This document shows positions 51,800 to 57,837 of a stretch of 64,000 nt of DNA, piece after piece. The notes below the pieces were generated by a model that was given only the letters and a program-made list of their open reading frames with translations, searched no databases and was not told where the DNA came from. The stretch spans positions 1 through 64,000 of the forward strand of contig NZ_JAEUMN010000035.1 in assembly GCF_016793225.1 (NCBI RefSeq). The letters are read 5' to 3'. Numbering within the stretch: position 1 is the stretch's first letter; each line of letters starts with the position of its first letter. The position numbers and the translations under genes are program-made. Origin of the DNA: Phenylobacterium sp. Lineage in GTDB: Bacteria > Pseudomonadota > Alphaproteobacteria > Caulobacterales > Caulobacteraceae.

Positions 51800-51875
51800 G
51801 GGGCTATAGCTCAGTTGGTAGAGCGCTTGAATGGCATTCAAGAGGTCAGCGGTTCGACTCCGCTTAGCTCCACCA
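51800..51875 (+). tRNA. tRNA-Ala, anticodon GGC
   Basis: The 76-nt gene folds as a full cloverleaf: acceptor GGGGCTA pairs with TAGCTCC (one G-T pair), D-arm GCTC-AGTTGGTA-GAGC, anticodon stem CTTGA/TCAAG with loop ATGGCAT (anticodon GGC), and T-arm AGCGG-TTCGACT-CCGCT. CCA is encoded at 51873-51875. It reads GCC and GCU alanine codons, GCC being abundant in this GC-rich genome. It appears to be a single-gene unit. Confidence 0.97.
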
Positions 51876-56936: not shown

Positions 56937-56978
56937 GACCGTTGCAATTGGCCGGGCCTCATACCATCTGAACAGCGT

Positions 56979-57045
56979 CCGGTTGCACCGAGCCGATACC
57001 GGGCGGTTCGACCGGAGAGTCGCTTCTTTCGAGGACTCCGTCTGG
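56979..57045 (+). promoter_or_regulatory. ROSE-like RNA thermometer in the hsp20 leader
   Basis: The 3' hairpin spans 57017-57038. GAGUC (57017-57021) pairs with GACUC (57034-57038), G57022 is unpaired, then C57023-G57033, U57024-A57032 and U57025-G57031, with loop CUUUC. The ribosome-binding sequence GAGGA (57031-57035) is therefore fully paired, and UCGCU (57020-57024) faces AGGA (57032-57035), the UYGCU/AGGA signature of ROSE elements. Two small hairpins precede it: CGGT-TGC-ACCG (56980-56990) and CGGT-TCG-ACCG (57004-57014). Heating should melt the last hairpin and permit hsp20 translation. The ROSE mechanism is established for rhizobial small heat-shock genes; its operation here is an inference. 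Confidence 0.72.
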
Positions 57046-57468
57046 ATGAACCGTAGCCTGATCTTCGACAGTCCGTTCCTGCTGGGTTTCGAGCATACCC
57101 GAAGCCTCATCGAGCGGGCGGCCAAGGCGGCCGCCGAGAGCTATCCCCCCTACAACGTGGAGGATATCGGCGACGGCGCCCTGCGCATCACGCTGGCCGT
57201 GGCCGGGTTCGCCCCCGACCAGCTCAGCGTCACCGTCGAGGACCGCCAGCTTGTCGTCGCCGGCAAGCGGGAGGGGGCCGCGGGAAAGTCCGAGGACTCC
57301 TACCTCCACCGCGGGATCGCCGCGCGGGGCTTCGTCCGAAGCTTCGTCCTGGCGGACGGCATGGTGGTGGAGGGGGCGACCCTGGAGCACGGCCTGCTCC
57401 ACATCGACCTGGCCCGGCCGGAGCCCGAACTGCGCGTTCAATCGATCCCGATCCGAACCCGAAGTTGA
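57046..57468 (+). CDS. Hsp20 family small heat-shock protein (IbpA-like)
   Basis: The 140-residue protein begins MNRSLIFDSPFLLGFEH and has an alpha-crystallin domain from about residue 37 (YPPYNVEDIGDGALRITLAV) with AGFAPDQLSVTVEDRQLVVA and YLHRGIAARGFVRSFVLAD, then the DLARPEPE end. It holds unfolding proteins for refolding by DnaK/ClpB. The ATG at 57046 is preferred over an in-frame start at 56983 because homologues begin MN/MR...F and because the ribosome-binding site lies in the thermometer. DUF1150 follows, the standard alphaproteobacterial partner. Confidence 0.93.
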   Translation: MNRSLIFDSPFLLGFEHTRSLIERAAKAAAESYPPYNVEDIGDGALRITLAVAGFAPDQLSVTVEDRQLVVAGKREGAAGKSEDSYLHRGIAARGFVRSFVLADGMVVEGATLEHGLLHIDLARPEPELRVQSIPIRTRS

Positions 57469-57579
57469 GCTCCACCGAAGACTAGAAGCCTGGGACGCCG
57501 GAATTGCCCGGGTCCCGTCAAAGGAAAGGCAGACTGAACCAGTGGCCTTTCGAAGCGTTAGTGCCCCCCGGAGGTGGTC

Positions 57580-57837
57580 ATGATGACACCTGTTCTATCG
57601 ATGGAAGCGTTTGCCGCGCTCGGCGCCCCGAACCTGGTCTACGTCCGGCCCATCAAGGCCGCCGAGATCATCGCCAGCACACCCGCGGCGCAGATCGAGA
57701 GTTTCGAGCTCGACCCCGAGCAGACCCTTTACGCCGTGCATCGCGCCGACGGCGAACGGCTCGCCGTCCTGACCGACCGCAACGCGGCGGTGGCCGCGGC
57801 GCTGGCGCACGAACTCGCGCCGGTCTCGGTGCACTGA
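57580..57837 (+). CDS. DUF1150 family protein
   Basis: The 85-residue protein contains ALGAPNLVYVRPIKAAEI and LYAVHRADGERLAVLTDRNA, the DUF1150 core. In alphaproteobacteria this gene regularly follows hsp20 and is presumed to act with it; its function is unknown. The ATG at 57580 lies 5 nt after cggagg; an ATG at 57583 and a GTG at 57574 are alternatives. The 111-nt gap to hsp20 has no terminator-like hairpin, so cotranscription is plausible. Confidence 0.88.
   Translation: MMTPVLSMEAFAALGAPNLVYVRPIKAAEIIASTPAAQIESFELDPEQTLYAVHRADGERLAVLTDRNAAVAAALAHELAPVSVH

Follow-up and report, generated by a model that had tools for sequence, protein, structure and literature searches.

What controls translation of the small heat-shock protein (sHSP) gene hsp20 in this Phenylobacterium is the question raised by the leader of that gene, which had been predicted from the letters of the DNA to act as an RNA thermometer of the ROSE class. 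In the window, i.e., the whole stretch of 64,000 nucleotides that was analyzed, hsp20 is preceded by a GtrA-family gene and followed by a DUF1150 gene that starts approximately 110 nt past the hsp20 stop and has its own Shine-Dalgarno (SD) sequence (Table 1). The DUF1150 protein terminates in V-S-V-H, which corresponds to V86, V88, and H89 of the LarA degron described in the available excerpts of PMC10665427. The locus therefore has the organization of a larA-type operon, with a DUF1150 gene located 3′ of an sHSP gene and coding for a C-terminal V-x-V-H. Judged by sequence, the DUF1150 gene looks like an orthologue of Caulobacter larA, which encodes a Lon activator, and hsp20, judged by its linkage to larA, is the counterpart of C. 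crescentus sHSP2. According to the same excerpts, LarA activates Lon, accumulates via sigma32 transcription, and is degraded by Lon, and the C. crescentus shsp2-larA operon is under direct sigma32 control (PMC10665427).

Table 1. Features of the hsp20-larA locus, in window coordinates
Feature	Position	Strand	Evidence
sigma32 (RpoH)-like promoter pattern TTGCAA-N16-CCATCT	56942..56969	+	Pattern conservation
Hairpin I, one long stem-loop (UCCGGUUG...CGACCGGA), conserved apex GCC...GGGC	56978..57016	+	Two-sided changes in 10/17 pairs
Hairpin II, SD-sequestering, ROSE-like, GAGUC(G)CUU-CUUUC-GAGGACUC	57017..57038	+	Conservation, compensatory basal pair, permutation test
UCGCU anti-SD motif (ROSE U(U/C)GCU), G57022 bulged	57020..57024	+	GUCGCU in 97/97 genus leaders
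Shine-Dalgarno GAGGA of hsp20, paired within hairpin II	57031..57035	+	Sequence and folding
hsp20, small heat-shock protein	57046..57468	+	Pfam HSP20, E 1.3e-15; ATG at 57046
Candidate second hairpin over larA SD and start, GGU(G)GUC / GACACC	57573..57590	+	Pairing in 69 sequences, Thr-codon bias
larA orthologue (DUF1150), putative Lon-activity regulator	57580..57837	+	Pfam DUF1150, E 1.9e-26; ends ...VSVH

An hsp20-type match was found in all 101 Phenylobacterium genomes, four of them having a distant paralogue only and one a fragment. The leaders of the genus set numbered 97 and represented 96 of these genomes (of 101), one genome contributing two copies; the two larA-type hsp20 copies of genome G095 (L022 and L036) each have a complete leader of their own. 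Outside the genus, 106 orthologous leaders were examined, 19 from other Caulobacteraceae and 87 from beyond the order, the latter being the best 87 by E-value (down to 8.1e-44) among the orthologues listed, with four of already-sampled genera skipped. In families f2 to f5 of the order (95 genomes searched), only a distant paralogue was found (best E 6e-32 to 4e-22), and in one nothing. On these matches, a single family of the order seems to have the larA-linked sHSP, which is nevertheless common in other parts of the class.

The window reads TCGCT at 57020-57024 and AGGA at 57032-57035. When GAGUC-G-CUU / GAGGACUC (57017-57038) was folded, U57020 paired with A57035, C57021 with G57034, C57023 with G57033, U57024 with A57032, and U57025 with G57031, leaving G57022 unpaired and burying the entire GAGGA (57031-57035); the stem was extended by G57017-C57038, A57018-U57037, and G57019-C57036. 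The pairing of UCGCU with AGGA around an unpaired G57022, and the burial of the whole GAGGA by the last hairpin of the leader, both claimed in the original prediction, were thus borne out by letters and fold alike. GUCGCU is located 22-32 nt ahead of the start codon in every genus leader, and G[A/G]GUCGCUU was present in 94 of the first 96. Among 83 less redundant genus rows, four of the eight hairpin II pairs were invariant and two more varied in only one or two rows. Because hairpin II is nearly invariant within the genus, no covariation evidence is obtainable there, and the comparison was taken outside the genus.

The predicted free energy of hairpin II, −7.2 kcal/mol, falls inside the range of −4.1 to −7.6 kcal/mol given for Pseudomonas thermosensing hairpins in excerpts of PMC3669281, while 47 of the 97 genus hairpins II were more stable than this range, the extreme being −10.6. 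Hairpin II plus spacer had an ordinary folding energy in the window (z −0.06 versus shuffles), so that the case for hairpin II rests on conservation, not on energy. Nearest-neighbor folding of hairpin II alone predicted a slight opening, the SD being unpaired with a probability of 0.02 at 25°C and 0.07 at 42°C, and folding across 20-60°C likewise predicted slight opening only of the SD hairpin. For the known thermometer of E. coli ibpA, the minimum-energy fold also misses the SD hairpin given by Rfam; weak predicted melting is therefore weak evidence either way. With the coding sequence included, a fold of lower energy was available to the window leader from 37°C upward, in which GGUUC paired with GAACC past the start codon and the SD was still hidden. 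This long-range alternative with the first hsp20 codons was set aside, as its prerequisites (GGTTC within the final 60 nt of the leader and GAACC among the first 12 nt of hsp20) occurred in only 12 of the 97 genus leaders.

Ahead of hairpin II, two small near-identical hairpins (CGGT-TGC-ACCG and CGGT-TCG-ACCG) had been predicted, making three in succession. The last hairpin held, and the near-identical letters are indeed present, but the two small hairpins did not stand as a conserved fold: the covariation score of these 4-bp structures was reached by 105 of 500 shuffles, and their arms form one long stem-loop instead, here called hairpin I. They are near-identical because the arms of the long stem are complementary to themselves. 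In alignment A3, which holds 41 leaders of equal hairpin I length and is partly selected (52 passed a fold-register filter and 11 were dropped by eye), the long stem changed on both sides in 10 of its 17 pairs. Taken together, hairpins I and II changed on both sides at 11 of their 25 pairs, with 46 such cells versus 14.9 in shuffles (0/500 reaching it), and 93.7% of cells were paired, compared with approximately 50% after a one-column slide. The 46 nt ahead of hairpin II folded with a mean z of −2.55 over the 97 leaders and −3.39 in the window. RNAalifold recovered both hairpins from an unselected MAFFT alignment of 96 leaders, and hairpin II alone from alignment A1 of 83 genus leaders.

The apex of hairpin I, G-N-GCC...GGGC, was found in 83 of 97 genus leaders (7% of shuffles), in 6 of 19 from other Caulobacteraceae (7%), and in 40 of 87 from outside the order (5%). 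Such conservation of the apex beyond pairing would fit a fixed or protein-controlled attenuator, in which the sHSP binds its own leader until aggregates titrate it and temperature acts indirectly. The almost invariant basal letters of hairpin II within the genus and its weak nearest-neighbor melting point the same way, and E. coli IbpA is described in excerpts of PMC10474464 as repressing its own translation through the 5′ UTR. That work, however, concerns gamma-proteobacteria, and autorepression is compatible with thermosensing. We regard an attenuator as possible, though somewhat unlikely.

Upstream of the two hairpins, the pattern TTG-N17..20-CCANN[TG] was found within 130 nt in all 97 genus leaders and in 18 of 19 from other Caulobacteraceae; beyond the order it occurred in 41 of 87, and in shuffled leaders in 69 of 1940. 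The sigma32 consensus in excerpts of PMC3669281 resembles this pattern closely. The end of the −10 element most often lies 8 nt from hairpin I (39 of 97 leaders), and this modal spacing predicts a transcript start at hairpin I or immediately ahead of it. In the window, this would place the start at approximately 56975-56977 and give a leader of approximately 70 nt between the promoter pattern and the start codon; the sigma factor acting in Phenylobacterium is presumably sigma32. A transcript start downstream of 57017, named in the original prediction as evidence that would speak against it, conflicts with both the promoter pattern conserved at 56942-56969 and the start predicted from it. For C. 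crescentus CCNA_03706 (shsp2), an alternative transcript start under copper stress is reported in excerpts of PMC8224329, and some transcripts may thus carry another leader.

A position at or near the predicted 5′ end, at the modal spacing given above, and a greater stability than that of hairpin II would also suit hairpin I to blocking decay, in which case the leader would serve mainly mRNA stability and hairpin II would be secondary. Against this, no part of the leader varies less than hairpin II over the SD, and outside the genus 80 of 106 leaders still have the U[C/U]GCU/AGG[A/G] core. A leader serving mainly mRNA stability is, in our judgment, improbable.

A covariance model of the leader, R1, recognized it in every one of the 97 genus loci, the weakest match having an E of 9.2e-4; of these loci, 56 had not been used for the model. 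In the genome of the window, R1 matched the leader and nowhere else at E up to 1. R1 was also run on 34 loci from the rest of the Caulobacteraceae or from Caulobacter-like records, some of which share a genome; it found the leader in 33 of them at E up to 1, and in 17 the E was 0.01 or less. Strictly filtered genome scans with R1 outside the genus (E up to 1) gave matches in 71 of 398 genomes in the order and 23 of 289 in the class, many of them probably due to chance; because these scans were weak, the comparison was anchored on the orthologous gene instead.

The conserved arrangement was defined as U[C/U]GCU located 2-14 nt before AGG[A/G] and within 60 nt of the start. It was kept in 16 of the 19 leaders from other Caulobacteraceae and in 64 of the 87 from beyond the order, compared with 7 of 321 SD-preceded starts in the flanks of relatives, all counts being based on fixed patterns and stretches that miss shifted leaders. 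By this rule, 26 of the 106 leaders lacked the arrangement, including L310, which is truncated by the end of its contig. The hsp20 start was the only one of the 134 SD-preceded open starts in the window to have it. A control on loci L103-L112 and L202-L219 (16 of 156) was discarded because these loci had been fetched as ROSE or R1 matches, the 7 of 321 being the cleaner figure.

Pairing of the flanks was examined by a permutation test, in which the 3′ arms were redistributed among sequences and the best register was re-chosen each time. Outside the genus, 168 contiguous pairs were observed versus 83.4 (sd 8.8), a value reached by none of 2000 permutations; for the 16 Caulobacteraceae alone, 55 were observed versus 41.9, reached by 1 of 2000. 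Within the genus, all 2000 permutations (mean 363.8) exceeded the 347 pairs observed, showing no covariation. Extension of the Phenylobacterium hairpin II past its conserved pairs was rarer than in all 2000 permutations; the stem could be kept short, or this could be an effect of relatedness. At 9 of 15 Caulobacter-type loci, the basal G-C pair is replaced by A-U and the stem is lengthened to (C)GAAGUC/G[A/G]CUUC(G). The comparison with related leaders proposed at the outset thus yielded compensatory changes, namely at the basal pair, in the permutation test, and in hairpin I, and the structure is conserved together with such changes. Both hairpins, their pairing, its conservation and covariation, and the heat-shock-type promoter pattern are features established by comparison among related leaders.

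CcrM methylates GANTC, and Caulobacterales carry CcrM. In the window both arms of hairpin II are GANTC (57017-57021 and 57034-57038), and the conserved letters might serve the DNA, the GAGTC and GACTC arms being CcrM methylation sites. The same 9 of 15 Caulobacter-type leaders, however, have GAAGTC/G[A/G]CTTC, which is not GANTC, and keep the pairing, and in 9 of the 83 genus rows the 3′ arm reads GGCTC, its pairing preserved as U-G. Because Caulobacter-type leaders pair without GANTC, this explanation was rejected as very improbable. Chance pairing of the SD with upstream sequence, to which the unremarkable energy of hairpin II in the window would be congenial, is scarcely conceivable and was refuted by the conservation in all genus leaders and in the 80 outside ones against the controls, and by the permutation test. 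That a conserved RNA hides the hsp20 ribosome-binding site is nearly certain.

In excerpts of PMC3669281 and PMC10474464, ROSE-like thermometers are described as sHSP 5′ UTRs of 60 to over 100 nt with two to four stem-loops, in which U(U/C)GCU is imperfectly paired with the SD in the 3′-proximal hairpin. The hsp20 leader, with a predicted length of approximately 70 nt and two stem-loops, the 3′-proximal one having U(U/C)GCU on the SD, bears all these marks and has the compensatory changes besides. These observations support the assignment to the ROSE class, from which thermosensing itself is deduced, and the hsp20-larA leader is likely a two-hairpin ROSE-like RNA thermometer.

By description rather than by sequence, its likeness to the Pseudomonas ibpA leader in excerpts of PMC3669281 extends to two hairpins, a stable G-C rich hairpin I, U(U/C)GCU on the SD, a sigma32 promoter, and a similar energy of hairpin II. 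The Phenylobacterium leader differs in its longer hairpin I with the GCC/GGGC apex and in its operon with larA, and the Pseudomonas leaders were tested in cells, with a 3.9- to 6.1-fold rise (PMC3669281). The leader of E. coli ibpA (ROSE_2, RF01832), also an sHSP gene, similarly places UCGCU ahead of AGGAG in its final hairpin, but its 5′ hairpin is different, and RF01832 has no match on the Phenylobacterium leader. Rhizobial ROSE (RF00435) shares the U(U/C)GCU hairpin on alphaproteobacterial sHSP genes, with three to four hairpins according to the excerpts of PMC3669281, compared with two here. The same excerpts name C. crescentus, of the same bacterial family, among species with classical ROSE-type thermometers described as having three to four hairpins, possibly on the same or on the other sHSP gene; the idea of a ROSE-type element in Caulobacteraceae is therefore not new. 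A search of the literature on Caulobacter or Caulobacteraceae thermometers, DUF1150, and locus tags, by title and start of abstract and with most subscription journals outside its coverage, found no study of the leader, and the word "thermometer" is absent from the main texts of PMC8119881, PMC10665427, and PMC8224329.

The Rfam ROSE and ROSE_2 models had been suggested as a check on the leader, and here the expectation failed. ROSE (RF00435), ROSE_2 (RF01832), and ROSE_3 (RF02523) gave no gathering-level match across the window and no match over the leader at E up to 10; as a positive control, ROSE_2 found E. coli ibpA at 100.4 bits. The Rfam ROSE models were likewise silent at hsp20 in 20 orthologous loci (E up to 1), and their silence was thus not counted against a thermometer. 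Of the 101 genus genomes, 10 had an RF00435 match above the cut-off, a positive control for this model, and none of the 38 genus places listed at E up to 10 was a larA-linked leader under the stricter filters used, by which weak matches are lost; at least three of these places are just upstream of the other sHSP (G097, G010, and G030). In 241 class genomes, searched with the same loss of weak matches, RF00435 reached E 0.01 in 14 and its cut-off in none, and none of the 14 places was the larA-linked gene among the matches listed. The leader is thus outside every Rfam ROSE family as modeled.

Several further RNA elements were observed in these searches. The second sHSP gene of the genome that holds the window (L098, contig C191, 16575-17000) carries UUGCU...AAGGA in its leader, which scores below the Rfam ROSE threshold (22.4 bits, E 0.34), so that two different ROSE-like leaders, this one and that of the larA-linked hsp20, occur in one genome. 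Rfam ROSE matches are clustered in G099 (four within approximately 20 kb, C1:88674-108025) and in G033 (four, C3:82348-101638), and G022 has two on each of contigs C24 and C44; each cluster is perhaps an island of ROSE-controlled heat-shock genes. The window also has a terC RNA match over gathering at 1612-1667 on the minus strand (60.3 bits) and a tRNA gene at 51800-51872, and tRNAs were found within approximately 500 nt upstream of hsp20 in 5 of 10 Caulobacteraceae loci scanned (L224, L225, L234, L239, and L240).

A second hairpin may hide the larA start. Its pairing was found in 99.3% of 414 cells from 69 distinct Caulobacteraceae sequences; two-sided changes were looked for in these 69 sequences and none was found, and the pairing is mostly explained by SD and coding constraints. 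The third base of the Thr codon, which faces a U or C of the SD, was A or G in all 93 parsed larA starts, a count over related sequences that is not to be read as a probability, compared with 284 of 404 Thr codons ending in C or T in hsp20 of the named loci. As judged from these codons, the purine bias is beyond what SD and coding constraints explain. Ten of 103 distinct larA starts fell outside the pattern, several of them plainly hairpin-less (L191, L235, and L237-L239), 1 of the 93 parsed starts had no SD-side helix, and in context the pairs had a mean probability of 0.49 to 0.59 (107 sequences). We put forward only as a doubtful proposal that the operon has two SD-hiding hairpins, one ROSE-like on hsp20 and one on larA with its anti-SD in the coding sequence, and that the leader represents a class-wide family absent from Rfam.

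For the ROSE-like thermometer of hsp20, the following course of events is envisaged. Upon heat shock, sigma32 would make the hsp20-larA transcript, and the stable hairpin I would fold near its 5′ end, preventing mispairing of the leader and perhaps shielding the 5′ end. In hairpin II, UCGCU would lie on the AGGA of the ribosome-binding site in a short stem weakened by the bulged G and the terminal U-G pair; weak but closed at growth temperature, it would cause poor translation of hsp20, and upon warming it would open and let the ribosome bind. Temperature as the signal and hairpin I as a passive scaffold are inferred. This mechanism is already known; new are the branch, apparently uncatalogued, its breadth, and its operon.

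LarA accumulation is explained in excerpts of PMC10665427 by sigma32 transcription and proteolysis. The leader likely adds a post-transcriptional temperature switch ahead of an operon whose second gene appears to encode a Lon activator. Judging by the comparison, many Alphaproteobacteria (64 of the 87 leaders examined outside the order) appear to share a thermometer family on the sHSP gene linked to larA; annotation would overlook it, since the Rfam models tried find no such leader. If the operon does have two SD-hiding hairpins, temperature would directly gate the translation of both the sHSP holdase and LarA, in addition to the control exerted by sigma32 transcription and by Lon proteolysis.
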